A stretch of DNA of 64,000 nucleotides from Arthrobacter sp. MYb229 (GTDB taxonomy: Bacteria; Actinomycetota; Actinomycetes; Actinomycetales; Micrococcaceae): assembly GCF_002975405.1 (NCBI RefSeq), contig NZ_PCPS01000002.1:62001-126000 (forward strand). Direction: 5' to 3'. Within the stretch, counting starts at the first letter, position 1, and each line of letters opens with the position of its first letter. The notes beneath the pieces were generated by a model that made no database searches, was not told the origin of the DNA, and was given only the letters and a program-made list of their open reading frames with translations. The position numbers and the translations under genes were made by a program. Shown piece after piece: positions 30,467 through 60,903 of this stretch.

Positions 30467-31081
30467 ATGATCCACACGTCAGCAATCCTCGGCTTCTCCA
30501 CAGGGCTTTCGCTAATCATTGCCATCGGAGCGCAGAACGCCTTTCTTCTTCGCCAAGGAATCAGACGAGAACACGTACTACTGACGGTATGCATCTTCGC
30601 TCTGTCAGACATTTTGTTGATCCTTGCAGGCGTGTCCGGAATCGGGGCCATCATTGAGCGCGCACCATGGATTCTCACTTATGCGAGGGTAGGAGGGTTC
30701 ATCTTCCTTGCTTGCTATGCAATTTTCGCGTTGCGTCGGGCAATTTCTCCGGGTGTTCTGAGTACATCGAACTCATCGGAGCCGACCGCCAGGATTTCCG
30801 TCGCACTAGCCACGTTGGCGTTGACTTGGCTTAATCCGCATGTCTATGTGGATACCGTGCTGCTGCTAGGCTCGGTGGCGGTAACGCAGGCCGAAGGGAA
30901 ATGGCACTTCGCCGGTGGTGCGATAGCCGCCAGCATTACCTGGTTCGTCGCGCTTGGCTACGCCTCAAGGTTCTTAGCGCGAGTGTTCTCCAGCGCCAAG
31001 TCTTGGCGCGTTCTTGACGGGATCATCTGCGTTTTCATGGCCATTTTTGCCGTCTTGCTAGTACTACCGCTTTTTGGCTAG
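30467..31081 (+). CDS. lysE: LysE/ArgO-family amino acid exporter
   Basis: 204 aa, about six membrane helices. The family signature is at the N-terminus: FSTGLSLIIAIGAQNAFLLR, then RREHVLL and a central LTWLNPHVYVDTVLLLGS. It exports L-lysine/L-arginine to prevent toxic accumulation. The adjacent divergent lysG supports inducer-dependent expression. It is followed by a 494-bp convergent intergenic region packed with DnaA boxes. Confidence 0.94.
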   Translation: MIHTSAILGFSTGLSLIIAIGAQNAFLLRQGIRREHVLLTVCIFALSDILLILAGVSGIGAIIERAPWILTYARVGGFIFLACYAIFALRRAISPGVLSTSNSSEPTARISVALATLALTWLNPHVYVDTVLLLGSVAVTQAEGKWHFAGGAIAASITWFVALGYASRFLARVFSSAKSWRVLDGIICVFMAIFAVLLVLPLFG

Positions 31082-31575
31082 GCACGTCAGATATCCACAG
31101 TATTAACAGCTTATCCACACACCCTGTGGAGAACAGTCACGCTTACTTGTTCACAACTTTATCCACAGGTGGGGATAACACTGCGACTACATGTACAAAT
31201 CAAGGAAAAGGCCTACTCATGGCCGAATAAAGACTGTGGAATCACATGCTTGTAAGTTATTAACACTGTGGATTACTCGTGTGGACATCTTGCCCGTATC
31301 GGCAATGTCCCCAAAATTGGCCGATTCGCTTAAAGATTCGAACAAGCGATCGCACCCCCTATGCACCTTCGTAATATTGCTATCTACAGGCCCTGTTTAA
31401 AAGTTATCCACAAATGTGGGTAAAGCTGTGCGTATTCAATACCTCGGATGGCATATCCGCGGAAGTTCAGTGGTTTCGGGGGAGGGGGATTGACCTCTAA
31501 GGGTGAGTTACACGGGTGTAAGTTATTAACAGTGTGGATAAATTGTGTGGATAACTCGGGTCTAGAGAATTCGAA
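31082..31575. other. DnaA-box cluster in a convergent intergenic region (secondary origin or DnaA-titration site)
   Basis: No gene. Five perfect TTATCCACA boxes: 31111-31119, 31159-31167 and 31404-31412 on +, 31533-31541 and 31546-31554 on -. One-mismatch boxes: 31091-31099, 31125-31133, 31170-31178, 31267-31275 and 31415-31423. Several A/T-rich runs (TTATTAACA) are interspersed. Both flanking genes end here, so promoter control is not an obvious explanation. It has more perfect boxes than the dnaA-dnaN or dnaA-rpmH gaps. Roles to consider are a datA/DARS-like DnaA reservoir or a part of a split origin. Confidence 0.75.
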
Positions 31576-51219: not shown

Positions 51220-51235
51220 TGTTTCACGTGAAACA
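51220..51235. other. parS site 1 (upstream of parA)
   Basis: Perfect TGTTTCACGTGAAACA, 15 bp before the parA ATG, in the rsmG-parA gap. ParB bound here could also repress parA. Confidence 0.95.
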
Positions 51236-51249
51236 TCGTCGGTGGGTTC

Positions 51250-52221
51250 ATGGATTTTGAACGCATCAATTCACGAGGAGGAGTTTCACCTTTGTCCAAG
51301 GCTAAAGGTTCGTCGAGCAACGTTTTTGACTTTAATGATTCTTCTTCGCCGTTAGCTAGTCAGCTGGCCAATGAACATAGGCGCCGCGAAGCGATTTCGG
51401 AGCGAGAAGTCCCAACGCCGCCGAAGACTCGATACCTCACTATCTCCAACCAAAAGGGTGGAGTGGGCAAGACGACGACGGCAGTTAACCTTGCGGCGGG
51501 TTTGGCCAAGAGTGGTCTGAACGTTCTGGTAATCGATATCGACCCGCAGGGCAATGCATCGACAGCTCTAGGTATTGAGCATCATTCGGAAGTCGATAGC
51601 ATTTACGACGTACTTATCAATGATCTTCCTTTGGCAGATGTCATTGCGACTTGCCCTGAGCTACCCACATTGGAAGTGGCCCCGGCAACTATTCATCTTG
51701 CGGGTGCTGAAATTGAATTAGTTTCTTTGGTGGCCCGAGAGCAGCGGTTGCAGCGAGCATTGGATGACTATGCGCGCACTCGTCAACGCAAGGGACTTCC
51801 TCGTCTGGACTACGTATTCATAGACTGCCCGCCGAGCTTGGGCCTATTGACTGTCAACGCATTTGTGGCTGCCAGGGAAGTGCTCATCCCAATTCAGTGT
51901 GAGTACTACGCGTTGGAGGGTCTGAGCCAGCTTTTGAAGAATATTGAGATGATTCAAAAGCATTTGAATTCAAAATTAACTGTTTCCACGATACTGCTCA
52001 CCATGTATGACGGCCGGACCAATTTGGCGGCACAGGTAGCCAACGAAGTGCGGGAACATTTCCCAGAGCAAGTTCTCGGCGCCGTCATACCTCGATCTGT
52101 ACGCATCTCGGAAGCCCCGAGTTACCAGCAGACCGTAATTACTTACGACCCGAGCTCCACCGGCGCGTTGTCTTATATGGAGGCAGCCATAGAGATCGCC
52201 GAACGAGCGGTAAAATCCTAA
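51250..52221 (+). CDS. parA: Chromosome partitioning ATPase ParA
   Basis: 323 aa. Walker A deviant motif KGGVGKTTTAVNLAAGLA, A' IDIDPQGNASTALG and Walker B FIDCPPSLGLL. A start at TTG 51292 is a serious alternative because a strong GAGGAGGAG lies just before it, while ATG 51250 has only GGTGGG three bases away; the choice affects 14 residues. It forms nucleoid-bound dimers that pull ParB-parS complexes. A parS site sits in its promoter. Confidence 0.96.
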   Translation: MDFERINSRGGVSPLSKAKGSSSNVFDFNDSSSPLASQLANEHRRREAISEREVPTPPKTRYLTISNQKGGVGKTTTAVNLAAGLAKSGLNVLVIDIDPQGNASTALGIEHHSEVDSIYDVLINDLPLADVIATCPELPTLEVAPATIHLAGAEIELVSLVAREQRLQRALDDYARTRQRKGLPRLDYVFIDCPPSLGLLTVNAFVAAREVLIPIQCEYYALEGLSQLLKNIEMIQKHLNSKLTVSTILLTMYDGRTNLAAQVANEVREHFPEQVLGAVIPRSVRISEAPSYQQTVITYDPSSTGALSYMEAAIEIAERAVKS

Positions 52222-52405
52222 GACAGAACGTTCTAGACAACAAGATCTGGAATTCACTTGTTTTTCGTTGTTTTTAGGATAGAAGTTTCATCTTCAATAG
52301 ACCCATGACTCCCTAAAAGGAAAATTGTCAACATCCCCCTAGTTACTCACGTAAACAGTAGACTAGTCGTGGGTTGAGAATTTGGATGAAAAGGAGTGCC
52401 GCTAT

Positions 52406-53566
52406 ATGGCTGACAAGAAGCGTGGCTTAGGCAGAGGGCTTGGTGCGCTGATTTCCAGTTCGCCATCCGGGGCTGTGGCAGAGATTAAAGACGATGTTTC
52501 ACGTGAAACATCGATACCTACCTCCGACCAGAGCAAGACGAAGACAGCTCGTCCTGTAGACATGTTCTTTGAGCCGGGACGCAAGTCGGCTTCCTCTGCG
52601 CCGAAAGCGGCACCTGCAAAGAGTGCGAAGAAGCCTCGGGCGGCAATGCCTGGACTCAACACGACCGTCGCTCCGCGCAAGACCGAACCTGTCCCGCAGA
52701 GTAACGACCGGGGAGGGGTGCTGGAGGAGCCGGCAAATGGCTTGGTAGACGTACCGGGAGCTCGTTTTGCTGAACTCAACGTTGACCAGATTCATCCGAA
52801 CCGTAAGCAACCCCGAACGAATTTTGACCAGGAACACATGGATGAACTCATCCATTCGATTCGGGAAATTGGCCTGCTCCAGCCAATTGTTGTTCGTCCC
52901 TCGCGAGAAGACAACGATGCACCATATGAACTGGTCATGGGTGAACGTCGTTGGAGGGCGACTCAGGCCGCAGGACTGTCTACGATTCCGGCTATCGTCC
53001 GAGATACGCTGGATACCGACCTACTTCGTGATGCACTCCTTGAGAATCTTCACCGTTCGCAGCTCAACCCACTTGAAGAGGCCGCGGCTTACCAGCAGCT
53101 TCTTGAAGAATTCAATTGCACTCAGGAAGTACTTTCGGATCGTATTGGGCGATCACGCTCGCAGATTTCGAACACAATCCGGCTGATGAAACTGCCTGCC
53201 CTGGTGCAGCGACGAGTGGCCGCCGGCGTATTGTCGGCCGGGCATGCACGTGCACTGCTCGGTTTATCCAATGGAGAAGCAATTGAGCAACTTGCTCAAC
53301 GAATCGTCAATGAAGGATTGTCCGTTCGCGCTACGGAGGAGGCAGTGGCCCTTAGCGGCGACAAGCCAGCTAAGAAGACCGTTAAGGCACGTGAGAACCA
53401 GCGTAACGAGCGGCTGGATTTTTTGGCGACGTCGTTGGCTGATCGTTTGGACACTAGCGTCAAGATTCAATTGGGTACCAAAAAAGGTAAAGTCAGCATC
53501 GAGTTTGCCTCGGTGGAGGACCTAAATAGAATTATGGAAGTCCTAGATCCGGACTTGAAGAAGTAG
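52406..53566 (+). CDS. parB: Chromosome partitioning CTPase ParB
   Basis: 386 aa from the ATG at 52406 after AAGGAG. N-terminal KKRGLGRGLGALI (ParA-binding motif), a roughly 100-residue Ala/Lys/Pro linker, then the CTP-binding fold (VNQ-like ELNVDQIHPNRKQPR and VMGERRWRATQAAG). The HTH is CTQEVLSDRIGRSRSQISNT, and a C-terminal dimer domain follows. It loads at parS and slides as a CTP clamp. A parS site lies within its own coding sequence at 52495-52510. Confidence 0.97.
   Translation: MADKKRGLGRGLGALISSSPSGAVAEIKDDVSRETSIPTSDQSKTKTARPVDMFFEPGRKSASSAPKAAPAKSAKKPRAAMPGLNTTVAPRKTEPVPQSNDRGGVLEEPANGLVDVPGARFAELNVDQIHPNRKQPRTNFDQEHMDELIHSIREIGLLQPIVVRPSREDNDAPYELVMGERRWRATQAAGLSTIPAIVRDTLDTDLLRDALLENLHRSQLNPLEEAAAYQQLLEEFNCTQEVLSDRIGRSRSQISNTIRLMKLPALVQRRVAAGVLSAGHARALLGLSNGEAIEQLAQRIVNEGLSVRATEEAVALSGDKPAKKTVKARENQRNERLDFLATSLADRLDTSVKIQLGTKKGKVSIEFASVEDLNRIMEVLDPDLKK
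52495..52510. other. parS site 2 (inside parB coding sequence)
   Basis: Perfect TGTTTCACGTGAAACA within codons about 30-35 of parB, reading DVSRET, in the variable linker where the sequence is free to carry a DNA site. Confidence 0.95.
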
Positions 53567-53580
53567 CCACTTGCTCTTGC

Positions 53581-53628
53581 GGTGTCGGGTATGTTTCACG
53601 TGAAACATACCCGACACCATTTTTTTTA
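53581..53628 (+). terminator. parB terminator: perfect 38-bp palindrome containing a parS site, then T8
   Basis: Positions 53581-53618 form an uninterrupted palindrome of two 19-bp arms (GGTGTCGGGTATGTTTCAC and its exact complement), followed by ATTTTTTTTA. It begins 15 bp after the parB stop. The central 16 bp are parS site 3 (53592-53607). In RNA it would be a terminator hairpin; in duplex DNA it is an extended ParB site. Confidence 0.88.
53592..53607. other. parS site 3 (core of parB terminator)
   Basis: Perfect TGTTTCACGTGAAACA at the exact centre of the 38-bp terminator palindrome. Confidence 0.95.
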
Positions 53629-54650
53629 TCCGCCTACGCGCAGCAAGCCGGATACACCGAATGATCCTTGTAAGCGCTTCAGCCGGTCGAACTGACCAGA
53701 ATTGGAGGAGACCTCAGCCTAGGGCGTACATGGCTTCTGAGGGGCTGCGCACAGGCCATGCTGGGCACTTAGAAGGAAGGAGTCAACCAGACCAGAGATG
53801 CTGCAAGCATGTCAGTCGAGGAAACAGATCAGCGGTGACCCGTGAAAACACAAAAACGGAAAGGCGGAACACCGTGAACCGAATCAGTTCTTGCCCAGAA
53901 TGCGAGCGTCACCCAAACTTGACCTCATTGAACCAGTAGTGACTTTCCTAAACCGAAAACGGTCCGATGTAACTTATTTGATCTAGGAATCCTTGCAGCT
54001 GAATTCTCTTCTCATCCGGCGATGTTGAAACCGTTGATTTGATTCACGCAGATAATGGCTCAAGTGTTCAGCTTCGGATCTGACAGTAGCGTGCTCGTTG
54101 TTCGCGTAATTGTGGATATGCGAGAGCGGTACCTGCACCTCTGATTGAAGTAAGTTTCAGGGCCCAGAACTACTGCCATATCGAATGTCCTTGAACAAGG
54201 TCACCGGGCAGAAGGACCAGCGGTAACGAGCTCGGTTCTATGCCGACCAAGGTGCACTTGGAACAATCTGATGGTTGCTTCGGGCGTGAGCGCGTGGCGA
54301 TGGGAGAAGCAATGAGAGTTCAAATCGTTGTCTGCTCTAATTTGGCCATGTCTGATAGATGCAATGAAAGGGGAGGCGCCGACCATCTGGGTGGCGCATT
54401 GCCTTCATATAATGAGACGGTCATCAGCAGTACCTTTGTTGAAGGTGGTCGCTGATAAGACGGCGGGCTTTGATCATTCACTCAGCGAATGCGGTGGTTT
54501 ATTAGGATGTCGCATTAATTGTCCGCCAGTGGGCAATTTTCTGGCCGCACGTCGGCTGATCTCCATGCACGCCAACAGATTCCTGACGATTGAAGGCGTG
54601 CCAACGAATTGCCGGGCAAACGACGATCATGTTTTGAGAACTCGTTAGTG

Positions 54651-54725
54651 TTGAATATTAGTAGGTTTGGGGACCCCGCAACGTTGCCTATTGGAGCCAG
54701 CGTTATTGCCGTTGGGGACCAGCAG
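54651..54725 (+). repeat. 75-bp inverted repeat, left copy
   Basis: Matches the reverse complement of 58831-58905 at 67 of 75 positions with no gaps. Two invariant blocks: 54651-54675 (25 bp, ending GGTTTGGGGACC) and 54695-54725 (31 bp, containing TTATTGCCGTTGGGGACCAG). The 19 bp between them hold all 8 differences. GGGGACC occurs twice, 45 bp apart. A weaker relative, TAATAGCCGTTGGAGACGG, starts near 54842. Confidence 0.85.
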
Positions 54726-55472
54726 TCCCTTTGGAAAAGTAATTAGGGCTACGTAGTGAAAATATCTTGATTCGCGCTGGGGAAGTTTGCGGTTTATTGC
54801 CTTCGGGGTATCCCGTATTGTGAATTCGCCCGGTCGCGGTAATAGCCGTTGGAGACGGTTCCAGCAAGCTCGGGCAGGAACTAGCGGCACGATTGAATAC
54901 CGCAGGAATGAGGATAAGCCAGGGGGCAGACATTCACTACACTCGAATATTGTACCGATGCGTTCCTATCGGGGGAGGTACTATAGACTCCGTGATCCAG
55001 AGGATCCGTTGGTCTACTTTGCTTCATTGCCTAGAACCGTAAAATAACCAGCTGCACGTTGCCCTAAATACAGGCCTTAGGGGGCATAAAAACGTCATCC
55101 ACGCTGTGAGTGCCACCAGCCTTCGGAGTTGCGTATCCTGTGGTACCTCAGTGCTTTATCTATTCTGTACCGGCAACGGTTTACGGGCAGGATTTTTTGT
55201 GAACATGCCGAGTGATGATTGCAACAGCATTGTCTGTGGGCGGTGCTATTCATTTTCGTCGCATTGGGTATAGCTCTCCAAAGCGATTTTTCGAGTCCTA
55301 GAACAACTAGGTTCACAGATCTTCGACTAGCACCAGAGACGGAGCGACTGACAAGATTCCATTTGGCAGCGTTCAACAGAGGGCATGGGCATTCCCTCTG
55401 TTCCTCGGATGGTAGATAGCCGAAGGCATCTTCTTGGTGTAGAAGTAATCGAGGTGGGTTGGTCGGATAGTG

Positions 55473-55504
55473 TTGCTACCTTGCTACCTTGCTACCTTGC
55501 TACC
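55473..55504 (+). repeat. 8-bp tandem repeat, four copies
   Basis: TTGCTACC repeated four times exactly, followed by a partial TTGCCA. Sits in the gene-free segment inside the inverted-repeat bracket. Copy number probably varies by slippage. Confidence 0.9.
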
Positions 55505-55779
55505 TTGCCAGCTCCGACGCTTACCCTCGAATCTAGTGGTACGGATCGAAAGGCAATATTCGGTGACACTCAAGGCTCCGAATACTCATGTATTCACGCA
55601 TAGAATCATCGGCTTTCCAGTGGCGTCGAGGACGCTGATATTTGACCGTAGGTCCAAACTGAGCTCCGAATGCTCGAGCGTGTTCGGTTTAAAATTAGCT
55701 AGACGCGATCGGTGCTGGTCTCGCTAAAGCTCCGGTTCGTATTCAATAAATCAGAATATCTTGGATATGGGGCATGCTC

Positions 55780-55795
55780 TGTTTCACGTGAAACA
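55780..55795. other. parS site 4
   Basis: Perfect TGTTTCACGTGAAACA in the gene-free segment, 2.2 kb from parB. Confidence 0.95.
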
Positions 55796-57243
55796 TGGCG
55801 CCATGGATCGGCTGACATCGGAACTACATTGCGTGTCACCAATGTAGAAGGAACTAGCGGGCTGGATCGAATCCCAAAATCATAGAGTGATCATAGTAAG
55901 TACTGAGAACCGATGATGAGGATAATCTCTAGATGCTCTGCCAGGGGGCGCCTGCAGCGCATCTGATGTCCAACACCGACATCGAGATTACCTACGACAT
56001 CCAACACGCTGATTGAATTTCAGTTCAGACAAGTCGGATGGCAATATTTCTCAACCCTGCCGGCAACACTGTCAAAGCTGTAGCGGTCCGAGCTCAATCC
56101 TTAGATGATATCGATAGTTGGATCGGCATCACGACTAGATACAAGATACTTCTGAATGAATTTGGCACCGCCCAATCGATCACGGCGAATAATATCCTTG
56201 GAAGTCCAGTTGCATCATGGGAGTGCATGCTTCTGTCCTGCAGCAATTTCTAGTGATACCCATGTTGGCACCCCAGTCACGAAGAAGATCAGGGGAGTAG
56301 GGCGTATGTGAAATATCGGGACCTTTCAGCTCTTGAGCGCTGAACAAGTGTCCGATGTAGAGGTTACCAAGAAGAGGTAGACAGGTCCGACTGACGAGAT
56401 CATGGGCGTAGCAGACGGGATGTATACCTTCGGAATGATCGGTGATCTGATGTCACTGCGACAGTACGGCACACGCTTCGATTGAAGTTGCGTTCGGTAT
56501 TTTCGCGCGGTAGCTCCAAATCCCATACTCAATGAATACTGATCGAAAATCGGGAGGTATGGGAGCCTCCGGATATACCCTTCCATAGCCACCAATGTGC
56601 TTGTTGAGGGCCCGAACCTTTCGGGAGGCACCACGTAACCGCAACAACATCCTATAGCCTAGTCCAAGGACCTTTTCTCCCTCATGTTGTAGCTCGTAGT
56701 ATCGACTCAGATCGTATTTTGCCCGATCCGCTCCATGATCGCGTCCATGCAGGAATTTGAGTGTCACTCCGACTCTCGGGAATTGCTTAGACACCGTATT
56801 CCAGTCAGGCGGAGTGAACGAGCCCTAATGCTCCCCGAGGCCAGGGACTAAAAACTACCAAACAGGTTCCTATAGTTTGCCTGGGTTCCCGTTCCGGTGT
56901 TTTCGGTTTCTAATTCGGCATCTAGGACGTTGTATGCGTTGTTTCTGAAGATGTTTCGCGAGACGTCGATACTCCGCCCCGATATTCCTTCGACGGGAAG
57001 CAAGCGTGTCAGCTTCGCATTGTTTTATCGCACCAATTGCATTGCTCCCTCCAACAGATGTTGTCATATGGCGGAAGGATTCCAATTCATGGCTCTCAGG
57101 GGCGCCATTGGCGGTTCTGAGTGGCCATATTGGCGCTTTCAAATCGTCAAATATTCAACTGATCCGCTTCCCGAGCGATTTCACGATCGTATTTTTCTGA
57201 ACGTCTACTCCTGTGGCAACCGACGGTACTACGTGTGGGACTA

Positions 57244-57272
57244 TCCCAAAGAAACATGAATGTTCTCTTTGG
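57244..57272. repeat. Short inverted repeat in gene-free segment
   Basis: CCCAAAGAAACAT and ATGTTCTCTTTGGG face each other around GA, with one extra base in the right arm. No T run follows, so it is not a typical terminator. Confidence 0.5.
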
Positions 57273-58171
57273 GCACTGCCATAGGGTTCACCGGCATCGT
57301 TGGGATCTACGTTGCCGAAGGCTGCCCGACCCGACGAAAGAAGCCTGGCAGACTTCGCGAGAAGGATTCAATGGCTACGGTTACGTTCCACAAGTCCATA
57401 GCGATGAGAATAACGTCGCGATGGATGGAGTCTTGCCGGCATGTGCCAAGGAAAAATTGCTTCTGGTTCGGAACGTTGCTGCTTGGAGATATGCACGCCG
57501 CTGTTGTCGCTCAACGTTATCTTGTACTCAGTGTCTGGAGACTTAGTTACTCGGCATCGGCATCCGTTGCGAGATGAGATGGGCAGGCTCTTCCGCGGTA
57601 CCATCTGGAACGTTTTCGAAAGGTTCAGAATACTGGAGATCATCCGTGCTGTTGGGCATGGACATTCGCATTGGCGGCCGCTGTATCTCCGGCACAAGTA
57701 GGTACCGTCTCCCAACGGAAATATCGGTAGCATCCAGCATGTCGCGCAATCGGGACAGGTGCGAAATGAAGGGCTTATCCCAGATGTAGTGGGGGAGAGG
57801 TACTAGGCAAATATCGGCTGTCTGCATCTCGTTCTCGTTTGCCGGCGTTTGAGAGCTACTAGGAGTTCCGCTCAAAAACGATGACTGTGCACTTGTGATT
57901 TCTCGCTGAAAGCCAGTGTGGGACAAAAGGTCATCTATCCAGATTAGGCACCTGACGAATCGATGAGAACATCCGACCGAATCACTGGCTGCTCCCGCAG
58001 TGATTCTGGAACTCATTACGGGTAATCGGGATGTGGCGCCAGGTTCTACAATGGCGTCTGCGACGAAACGGTTTTTATAGTTCTTGCTACCGTCTAGGCG
58101 TAGTGCTGATATTTTTCACTACACTTGGGGCAGTTCGGTTCGCGGTCCTCCTGATACTCATCATCTGCGCG

Positions 58172-58187
58172 TGTTTCACGTGAAACA
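58172..58187. other. parS site 5
   Basis: Perfect TGTTTCACGTGAAACA in the gene-free segment, 261 bp from site 6. Confidence 0.95.
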
Positions 58188-58432
58188 TTCTTCACTCACT
58201 TAAAGGTTGGAATTACAGAATCCATGGTGTTGTATAGCTGGCGACGAGAAAAGCCGCTCCATGTCAGCACGGGACGCAAATATGTTCTTCGGGTACAGAA
58301 TTGTGCGCTACTGGTCCCTTCCATTATTGAAAACGGCGATCGTCGACGCGCGATTTCGAACGTCAATCAACGGAAGACAGAATGGAATCTAGCCCTTTCG
58401 AGGCCAGACCAGAAATGACGTTTGTTTCACGT

Positions 58433-58448
58433 GAAACAACGCTATTTG
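58433..58448. other. parS site 6
   Basis: Perfect TGTTTCACGTGAAACA, 383 bp inside the right inverted repeat. Sixth and last site found in the window. Confidence 0.95.
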
Positions 58449-58830
58449 CGAGACGACATGGTATTCACCGTTCGACGATCGGGGGCGGGCGGACCAGATT
58501 GTCTGATAAATGAGGTTCGGTCGATTTCAGAACTGATTGCGGCTGCGCCAACGAACATTCACTCTTAACGTCAAGTTTTCACTGGCAGATCTCGGGACCT
58601 AACTAACCACCAGAAGGTGGAACAGTTCCGGGAGCGACACGTGTATTGATCCTCTGACAACGAAGCCTCTGGCATCAGCGGCTTGGTTCTGGGGTGCATG
58701 CGGACGCGATTATGGATCGAATCATTCACAATACGACGTGGTGCGAAACCGGGACGTACAACATGCGTGAGCAGTTGAACCTCGTATAGAAAGGAATACC
58801 GTTGGCGGCCAGTGGCACCCTTCAGGGCAG

Positions 58831-58905
58831 CTGCTGGTCCCCAACGGCAATAACGCTGGCTTTCAAAGGCAATATTGGGTGGTCCCCAAACCTACTAATA
58901 TTCAA
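58831..58905 (-). repeat. 75-bp inverted repeat, right copy
   Basis: Reverse-complement partner of 54651-54725 (67/75 identical, same length). Just inside it, 58795-58815 (AATACCGTTGGCGGCCAG) pairs imperfectly with the CTGGTCCCCAACGGCAATAA end of the repeat, so this side could also form a local hairpin. No target-site duplication was seen outside the two copies. Confidence 0.85.
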
Positions 58906-60526
58906 CAACACCCTTGATCCGTAGCCATGAGGGTTGCACCTACATGTTGAAGTTGCCCGGCTCAACCCAGATCCTATGCTGAACAAACCGATCCAAGTTC
59001 GTATCCGCGTGAACCCCTGAATTGAACCTGGCAGGCCAGACAGATTGCTTGTAGTGAGTGCAGAGCCTGTTGCCGTCGAGCCATACGGGCGTTGCTTCGC
59101 TTTCTACGACATCCGCCGAAAGTCTCCCCATAGAGGGTCTGCTTATTCAGAGGTCTTCAAGGGCTCTAAGGGTGGCTCAGACGGAAGATTATCGTGTTTC
59201 GTTGGCAAGGCCGCTGGAAGGCATTATTGCTGCCTCACAATGAGTCAAATGCTCTACTTGGGGGAGGTGAATCTATTCTAGGAGGACGGATGGCAAACTA
59301 CCGTGGCATCATGCGTCCACTCGTTCGAGTACACAGACGCAGCGCTATCGTCAGACCCGGGAACTGTCCACCGTGGGCTGCCAACAACACTATGAAGGCC
59401 CCTGAACGACCAACTACTTACGACGACTATAGGTCACGTTGATAATCTCGGCGAGGTACAACTGGACCTGCGTTTTCCCAATAGATGACCCCAACAATAC
59501 GCGTGCTTCTAGGAGCCTGCTTTCTCACCAGTAATCGAATCAATGAAGACCGATCGGTTCTTCTCGTTGCCGCGTTCCCGAGAAAGCTCAGTGAGTTGCT
59601 AGTCAGCGCAAAAGAGAAACGGGTATCCGAGATAGCGCCTTATTAGCCGAACCGCGTCGATATCCACGACTTGGCATCGACGCTCTAACACGAGTGCAGC
59701 GACTGGACAGCGAAGGTAGTTCAGCGGTCACCAATTCTCAATAACTGGTACACCAGTACCGGTTACGTGGACCGGTCTCCTGGACTTGCTGTATCGAAGT
59801 AGAGTAGCGACACATGGTTGCGAACGTTCTGAGGTCCATCCGGTCCGTTCTCGCTCCATGCTTCTGGTCCTGATTACTTGACACATTCAGTGAGGAGAGA
59901 CGCTTGCCAGGTACGTCGTAGGGCGGGCCGTTACATTGAGAGACCCCCATCCAGCGTCTTCTTCTTTGAGCTCGCAAGGCACCGTTGCACGTCTTCTACT
60001 GCCGAATCTCGAAGGTAGTCTTTTTCCTGAATTTTCCTGGTCTATATCCCAAGCAACATAGGAATCAGGAACATGAAAATTTTAAAGATGAGTTCACTTC
60101 TGACTAGCACTACTGAGTTTCAAACGAGGATCGACTTGTGCATGGCAGCCTCGGGATTCATGACTGGTAAGAAGATTGGTGCCGCTAGCGGATGTCGTCA
60201 TCTATGCAAAGTAATCGCCGAAGATGCTCATGTTGGTAAGCGGCTATCGATATCTGGAAGGTGCTCTAAACTACTTTGCACGCTAACGGGTTGCTTCGAA
60301 GAAAGTTGAAGTAGCCAGAGATCGAAGCGCACGTGCTACCTGCAGCCGGTTGGGTGAGCGCCGTGTTTTCCGTCGATATGTTGAATCTGACCAACAAACA
60401 CACATGGAAATGAAATCTCCAATTTACTTGAGAGAAAACAAGCTATATTACTTGGTTAAATACGTCGTAGCTCTGAGGCGCGTTTTCTGAGCATAGCCAC
60501 CACGCCCTGACTAGCGGTAGGGACAA

Positions 60527-60562
60527 AAATAGGCGTTGAGCTCGAAATCTCAACGCCTATTT
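60527..60562 (-). terminator. Terminator of trxA
   Basis: 14-bp perfect stem (AAATAGGCGTTGAG and complement) with an 8-nt loop, 17 bp after the trxA stop, followed on the minus strand by TTTTTGTCCC. It marks the right edge of the gene-free segment. Confidence 0.88.
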
Positions 60563-60579
60563 TGACAACTACTTAGGAT

Positions 60580-60903
60580 CTACAGGTATTCTGCAAATTC
60601 CTTCTCAATGACAGCCTTTGGCTTAGCACCGAGCGAGGAGGCGACGTGCTCGCCATCCTTGAAAACGAACATTGCAGGAATGCTGGTGATGCCGTACTTC
60701 GCGGAAATCGCCTGGTTCTCATCGATGTTCAGCTTTACGATGGTGACCTTGTCTGCGTGCTCCTCAGCGATCTGATCCAGGATTGGGCTCAGCTGACGGC
60801 ATGGACCGCACCACTCTGCCCAGAAATCTACGATTACTGGCTTCTCGGACTCCAGAACTTCTGCCTGGAAGGTTGCTTCGGTTACTGCCTTAGCGTTACT
60901 CAT
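60580..60903 (-). CDS. trxA: Thioredoxin
   Basis: 107 aa with the redox motif WCGPC (DFWAEWCGPCRQLSP) and the cis-Pro region GITSIPAMFVFKDGE. Cytosolic disulfide reductant recycled by TrxB, whose gene lies 26 bp upstream in the same operon. ATG start. Confidence 0.97.
   Translation of the reverse strand: MSNAKAVTEATFQAEVLESEKPVIVDFWAEWCGPCRQLSPILDQIAEEHADKVTIVKLNIDENQAISAKYGITSIPAMFVFKDGEHVASSLGAKPKAVIEKEFAEYL

Follow-up and report, generated by a model that had tools for sequence, protein, structure and literature searches.

The stretch of DNA analyzed here, referred to as the window, comprises 64,000 nucleotides from Arthrobacter sp. MYb229 (contig NZ_PCPS01000002.1, positions 62,001 to 126,000). 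It carries the adjacent genes parA and parB of a ParABS partition system, encoding a ParA-type ATPase and a protein with ParB_N and HTH_ParB domains, and, converging on parB, the thioredoxin gene trxA. Between parB and trxA lies a block poor in open reading frames (ORFs), hereafter the desert (Table 1). Copies of parS, the site at which ParB loads, are clustered at the par genes beyond chance. The source genome (labeled G000; other G and L labels denote compared genomes and loci) clusters with Glutamicibacter; the name Arthrobacter sp. is still in use for some genomes of this cluster.

Table 1. Features of the par locus and the adjoining desert, with positions in the window
Feature	Position	Strand	Basis
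Desert with few ORFs and a GC content of 0.506, flanked by the convergent genes parB and trxA	53567..60579 (7,013 bp)	.	ORF and GC scans
parA, domains AAA_31 and CbiA	51250..52221	+	domain matches
parB, domains ParB_N, HTH_ParB and ParB_C	52382..53566	+	domain matches
trxA, thioredoxin, converging on the desert	60580..60903	-	domain matches
Perfect parS in the gidB-parA gap	51220..51235	.	parS scan
Perfect parS within the parB coding sequence	52495..52510	.	parS scan
Perfect parS, core of the parB terminator hairpin	53592..53607	.	parS scan
Perfect parS	55780..55795	.	parS scan
Perfect parS	58172..58187	.	parS scan
Perfect parS	58423..58438	.	parS scan
Perfect inverted repeat of 38 nt with parS as core and a T-run after it; likely terminator of parB	53581..53618	+	inverted-repeat scan; covariation
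Inverted repeat with 15-nt arms and 8-nt loop, likely trxA terminator	60526..60563	-	inverted-repeat scan
Decayed IS21 istA-like fragments	56717..57036	-	search with G013 proteins
Decayed IS21 istB-like fragment; nearby DNA matches copies in relatives and three plasmid records	58670..58771	+	
Second decayed istB-like fragment	58943..59062	-	search with G013 proteins

We found that the longest ORF of the desert, with 157 amino acids (aa), is at the chance level (order-1 Markov model: mean 156, 95% level 240), and that none of its 10 longest ORFs reaches a Pfam cut-off. When runs free of ORFs of at least 160 aa were compared within 400 kb of the genome, the desert was the longest (7,363 bp), the runner-up measuring 1,968 bp. 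Its GC (guanine plus cytosine) content is 0.506, as compared with 0.612 in the rest of these 400 kb, and none of 393 windows of 7 kb has a lower value. A codon model called no gene in the window's desert, although this crude caller missed parA and parB as well; of the deserts compared below, one of the 18 from Glutamicibacter (G013) and two of the 29 others (L094 and L121) yielded ORF calls. The codon phase of substitutions remained below the 95% permutation level in all five alignable pairs of related deserts (the window's own desert aligns with none), whereas the parB control showed strong phase (at least 0.80) in four of the five pairs; only 43 of the 338 small indels in these desert pairs were multiples of three. 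A preliminary description of this DNA had stated that about 7 kb here lack a credible gene and are shifted toward 50% GC, and both statements are borne out by these data, the former as far as these tests reach. Enrichment of stop codons by selection against ORFs was rejected as a candidate, since stops are slightly fewer in the desert than in shuffled sequences. In an Rfam scan of 50-64 kb, the single match at an expectation (E) value of up to 1 was far under the gathering score and lay outside the desert. Searches bearing on a foreign origin gave zero matches among 50,697 phage records and, for plasmids, a sole match, an istB-type fragment in three plasmid records. As a separate observation, an 8-bp unit (TTGCTACC) forms a short tandem array of about 4-5 copies at 55473-55512.

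The window contains six perfect parS sites, as compared with 0.25 expected by chance, in a scan that tolerated up to three mismatches, and the 4-Mb genome has no perfect site other than these six. The preliminary description had counted the six correctly but assigned three of them to the desert; there are four (starting at 53592, 55780, 58172 and 58423). The 18 Glutamicibacter genomes together have 86 perfect sites, every one of which is located at the par locus: 53 fall in the desert and 33 in the parAB stretch next to it. Likewise, in 10 hand-picked genomes of groups g7 and g10, 63 of 66 hand-tallied sites with at most one mismatch lie 3' of parB within about 6.5 kb, and the other three just upstream. 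Words belonging to parS were by far the most enriched 8-mers in Glutamicibacter and Arthrobacter-type deserts alike. Besides parS, no convincing shared motif was found in Glutamicibacter deserts; the Arthrobacter-type ones share DnaA boxes. Two loci considered as parS-less deserts, L147 and L148, were rejected as such: they have no site at up to one mismatch, yet 10 each at two to three mismatches. Scoring Glutamicibacter sites with up to two mismatches revealed a proximal doublet spaced 39-42 bp in 10 of 18 genomes and a distal doublet spaced 63-68 bp in 11 of 18, a pair 51-81 bp apart being present in 15 of 18. Spacings near 42 and 63 bp would correspond to whole helical turns. The spacers of the distal doublets look unrelated by eye, except in close pairs such as G004/G012, and the distance from the final parS to trxA is 1.4-2.3 kb in 16 of the 18 genomes.

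A parS-bearing interval of 3,487-8,194 bp separates parB from trxA in all 18 Glutamicibacter genomes, its spacers being unalignable between species. The ORFs in these intervals are near chance except in G013, where ORFs of 520 and 248 aa form an istA/istB-like pair (the latter matching PF01695 above cut-off), in G007, which has one ORF of 257 aa, and, slightly, in G001 (180 aa; 95% chance level 176). In G253, whose desert has a GC content of 61%, the 160-aa criterion splits the block at ORFs of chance length, and the two longest pieces are still the top runs in 200 kb. To place the block in a wider context, the ParA, ParB, TrxA and TrxB proteins of 91 loci were used to build a FastTree tree. 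Glutamicibacter, Arthrobacter, Pseudarthrobacter and relatives form a group of 74 rows (support 93, some inner forks open), the boundary of which was set after the tree was seen. In 54 of these 74 rows, as compared with none of the 17 remaining ones, the interval includes a stretch of 3 kb or longer in which no ORF reaches 200 aa; the proportion is not an unbiased prevalence, as 20 of the loci were picked largely for their large intervals, and unmeasured rows (two inside the clade and two outside) were scored as lacking the stretch. In 7 of the 17 outside rows, the parB-trxA interval is merely 83-259 bp. A multi-kilobase gene-poor block has thus kept its position across species.

Both edges of the desert are marked by hairpins. 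In the 47 deserts compared in detail (18 from Glutamicibacter and 29 at other loci with an interval over 3 kb, leaving out the gene-filled L072 and L133 and the 20 loci picked largely for size), 42 have a hairpin with arms of at least 12 nt in the 110 nt that follow parB, and 44 have one no more than 130 nt from trxA, as compared with 6 of 1,058 interior 110-nt windows without parS. The parB-edge hairpin is often built round a parS site. At the parB-edge parS of Glutamicibacter, the 9-nt flanks are 94% complementary (16 sites with 13 different left flanks), as compared with 26% at 65 other parS sites; the corresponding values outside Glutamicibacter are 80% (17 sites) and 29% (193 sites). An alignment of this element from 17 of the 18 Glutamicibacter genomes (the hairpin of G007 lacks parS and was excluded), with the structure assigned by hand from the palindrome, gave a covariation of 0.498 as compared with 0.138 after shuffling, with two-sided changes in 13 of 18 pairs. 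Pairing was retained in 92.5% of cells, in comparison with 74.1% in shuffled and 35.9-52.9% in slid alignments. A T-run following the hairpin is not evident in every species. Judging from this anatomy, the parB edge probably carries a single element that acts as parS in DNA and as a terminator in RNA.

The sequence between these landmarks is hardly conserved. At 70-86% identity of the parAB flanks, deserts can be aligned over a median fraction of 0.000-0.010, which rises to 0.316 at 90-95% identity. In 12 of 12 close, hand-picked pairs, desert divergence exceeded divergence at fourfold degenerate (4D) sites of nearby genes, ranging from 0.330 versus 0.309 to 0.484 versus 0.159, with desert values above about 0.4 regarded as forced alignments. 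We do not claim spacer evolution faster than neutral, given those forced alignments and the profile of G001 versus G009 (L073 versus L074), which indicates segment recombination; the excess over 4D divergence is probably due in part to recombination. In that pair, divergence is 1-5% (mostly 1%) in distant DNA and climbs toward the desert from both sides, to 4-9% in the adjacent 3-4 kb and to 24-28% in those parts of the desert that can be aligned. This profile points to a putative recombination hot spot or replaced segment.

Some of the layout is nevertheless retained. Two Arthrobacter-type subclades have nearly constant desert lengths, 4,160-4,527 bp (n = 7) and 5,008-5,589 bp (n = 8), with a coefficient of variation of 3-3.5%. 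In pairs less than 12% alignable, parS positions were closer than random in both, 202 versus 321 bp in the first subclade (20 pairs) and 201 versus 336 bp in the second (25 pairs); both values fell under all 300 null replicates, with 11 and 12 pairs, respectively, under their own 5% level. In five deserts that were profiled, the only blocks common to at least two other deserts were parS, the edges, DnaA boxes, an insertion sequence (IS) piece and, exceptionally, a single 95-bp segment that L107 shares with two other deserts. What persists is architecture, namely position, convergent genes, edge hairpins, the parS within the parB terminator, parS arrays, doublet spacings and, in Arthrobacter-type deserts, a DnaA-box cluster, with the layout kept in part. 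This suggests a centromere in which the architecture, and not the sequence itself, may be what is preserved.

Using the two G013 proteins as queries, we detected istA/istB pieces of the IS21 type in 9 of 18 Glutamicibacter deserts, as compared with 1 of 29 others (L094). The pieces are decayed in G000, G003, G004, G007, G009, G011, G012 and G015, and the G013 pair looks intact. Within 400 kb of G000, the only istA/istB-like fragments are four in the desert, and at least one istB match occurs elsewhere in this genome, beyond those 400 kb. Such pieces account for part of the bulk of the deserts, not for their shared pattern. We also observed inverted repeats of 77 nt, 90% complementary and 4.1 kb apart, at 54649-54725 and 58831-58907; they are possibly the ends of a decayed IS, because the right copy sits in DNA matching IS-like copies of relatives.

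DnaA boxes divide the deserts into two types. With the exception of L121, the Arthrobacter-type deserts (28 of 29) contain 4-7 boxes at up to one mismatch, 4-6 of them within 500 bp, as compared with 0.1-1.6 expected by chance per whole desert, and DnaA-box words rank after parS words among the enriched 8-mers of this group. No such cluster is present in any of the 18 Glutamicibacter deserts, the window's included (0-4 boxes, none exact). In L101, an Arthrobacter-type locus, two groups of boxes, separated by a few hundred bp, are located about 2.37-2.74 kb downstream of parB; the exact boxes of groups of this type all have the same orientation and lie inside the parS array. A DnaA-box cluster with five exact boxes, flanked by a LysE-type gene and a rhomboid gene, was observed elsewhere in the window, at 30847-31554. 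Cumulative GC skew over the 400 kb reaches its minimum inside this cluster, at 31410 and 21 kb from parB, placing the par locus in the origin domain. From these sequence features, the cluster, rather than dnaA-dnaN, is likely the true oriC. A matching cluster (8-11 boxes in 600 bp) was found at the corresponding distance from parB in each of 12 other Glutamicibacter stretches sampled there, and in G253 and G303 the GC-skew minimum is 3-6 kb from their own equivalent of this cluster and over 26 kb from the desert. Further clusters were seen on the other side of parB. A dense one, at a distance of about 47 kb and outside the window (L164 2957-3289; G000 C12:162957-163289), has 10 boxes within 600 bp; G253 and G303 have smaller ones, of 5 and 7 boxes, at distances of 54 and 73 kb.

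We consider it reasonably probable that the desert is a selected gene-free platform for ParB loading and spreading, the body of the chromosomal centromere. ParB would load at the parS sites across the desert and at the parS within its own terminator, slide onto the gene-free flanking DNA to form the partition complex, and hand SMC to the chromosome. Selection would retain parS sites at particular spacings as well as the absence of genes and of incoming transcription, aided by the hairpin terminators at both convergent edges and, in some Arthrobacter-type lineages, would also retain a roughly fixed length and the DnaA-box cluster. The spacer sequence, being unselected, would drift, recombine and gather IS debris. 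A block closed to read-through in this manner would be occupied by ParB and SMC and transcriptionally silent, offering free DNA for ParB clamps and a quiet loading place for SMC, and may thereby confer a selective advantage. Loading of ParB clamps at parS and their outward sliding are established (for example, PMC8299390 and PMC7053999), and convergent transcription is reported to antagonise SMC (PMC5583512). The interpretation given in the preliminary description is thus partly supported: the dedicated non-coding, centromere-like locus that it proposed is well supported, since it is found again in related genera and is where parS sites concentrate, and its further suggestion, that ParB or SMC lands here and profits from a lack of transcription, may be right. 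A stronger form of the hypothesis, to which we give somewhat less than even credence, is a bacterial regional centromere, that is, kilobases maintained solely for length, emptiness and parS spacing. In this form, spacer sequence would change as fast as neutral DNA or faster, ParB loading would take its geometry from the doublet spacings, as whole helical turns, and the parS-terminator would stop transcription where ParB spreading starts.

Several observations weigh against a selected platform. The 3-kb ORF-free stretch is missing from 20 of the 74 clade rows (two of these unmeasured), and long ORFs occupy the interval in some members of group g44 and elsewhere. Promoter-like sites are depleted only mildly (61 versus 74, standard deviation 8.8; 26 versus 45, standard deviation 6.3). 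A third Arthrobacter-type subclade was not clearly under the null for parS position (571 versus 677, minimum 538; 14 pairs). In Glutamicibacter, desert length is variable (coefficient of variation 0.27), absolute parS position is unconserved across the genus (1571 versus 1373 bp in the null), and its subgroups lie within the null (703 versus 781, and 779 versus 1302 on two pairs). Moreover, ParB is reported to bypass roadblocks (PMC9242446) and one parS can suffice in other bacteria (PMC7022226), and therefore an empty track is not mandatory.

The most serious alternative, which we regard as rather unlikely though worth reckoning with, is a passive refuge in which ParB silences the vicinity of parS, genes that land there decay, ISs rot harmlessly, and parS alone is selected. 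The variable length and the IS debris of Glutamicibacter deserts favour such passivity, with IS21 pieces in half of them and, within 400 kb of G000, nowhere else, and in four of the pairs compared desert divergence is near the 4D rate. However, neutral bacterial DNA tends to be deleted, and this region persists through turnover of its sequence. The constant length and the parS spacing kept without sequence in two subclades, together with covarying hairpins at the edges, favour selection, and the G013 queries matched just one of the Arthrobacter-type deserts. A block of ordinary genes that recently decayed into pseudogenes appears improbable. IS21 remnants in the desert and an ORF of about 390-400 aa beside trxA in L119, L121, L122 and L130-L133, inside and outside the clade, agree with it, but the gene-poor state is common to several genera, the longest ORFs have no Pfam match above cut-off, and the alignable pairs lack codon periodicity. 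The preliminary description had named recent decay of a gene block in relatives as evidence that would tell against its view; the IS21 fragments answer to this in part, but no common gene block and no recognisable pseudogenes of chromosomal genes were found.

Comparably improbable is origin-linked control, in which the desert would be mainly a DnaA-binding locus, for oriC function or titration, with parS secondary. The DnaA-box clusters of nearly all Arthrobacter-type deserts are consistent with it, but the Glutamicibacter deserts have none and the GC-skew minima of G000, G253 and G303 lie outside the desert. We attach even less probability to undetected small genes or a non-coding RNA. Crude finders do miss short or atypical genes, as the codon model did with parA and parB, but the sole Rfam match was sub-threshold and outside the desert, few blocks were shared among the five profiled deserts, and no codon signal was seen.

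The usual picture of a bacterial centromere is one of short sites interspersed with genes. Among the matches listed, open-access titles and abstract starts gave no account of a parB-trxA region devoid of genes, nor of parS on the chromosome of Arthrobacter or Glutamicibacter; most subscription papers fell outside this scope, and the result is not proof of absence. A block common to related genera, whose architecture outlives its sequence, would constitute a natural experiment on the empty DNA needed by ParB clamps and SMC, on whether transcription harms ParB and SMC, and on whether bacteria, too, have fast-evolving centromeres. Culturable soil bacteria of the Glutamicibacter/Arthrobacter group lend themselves to direct tests of these points.

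The locus resembles the chromosomal ParABS systems of B. subtilis, C. crescentus, C. glutamicum, Streptomyces and Pseudomonas in its parAB operon near the origin, its clustering of sites in the origin domain, its canonical 16-bp parS palindromes, and a ParB with ParB_N, HTH and C-terminal (ParB_C) domains. In other bacteria, parS sites lie in or between genes, often across a wide origin domain. Their placement in the origin domain is described in PMC7022226. Here, in contrast, nearly all parS sites lie within about 10 kb, the majority inside a single gene-poor block of several kilobases that is bordered by hairpins on either side.

Clusters of DnaA boxes that lie apart from the origin exist in B. 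subtilis and, as datA, in E. coli. The Arthrobacter-type deserts are similar in having boxes outside the origin but differ in that these boxes sit within the parS array, and the Glutamicibacter deserts lack them. Eukaryotic regional centromeres present the so-called centromere paradox: their function and position are conserved, while their DNA is fast-changing, gene-poor and collects mobile elements. The desert likewise combines a conserved position with fast-changing, gene-poor DNA and mobile-element debris. Unlike regional centromeres, it retains parS, a short site of defined sequence; it showed no array of satellite repeats, and it is not known to carry an epigenetic mark. If the proposed interpretation is true, the desert would be a bacterial counterpart of the centromere paradox.

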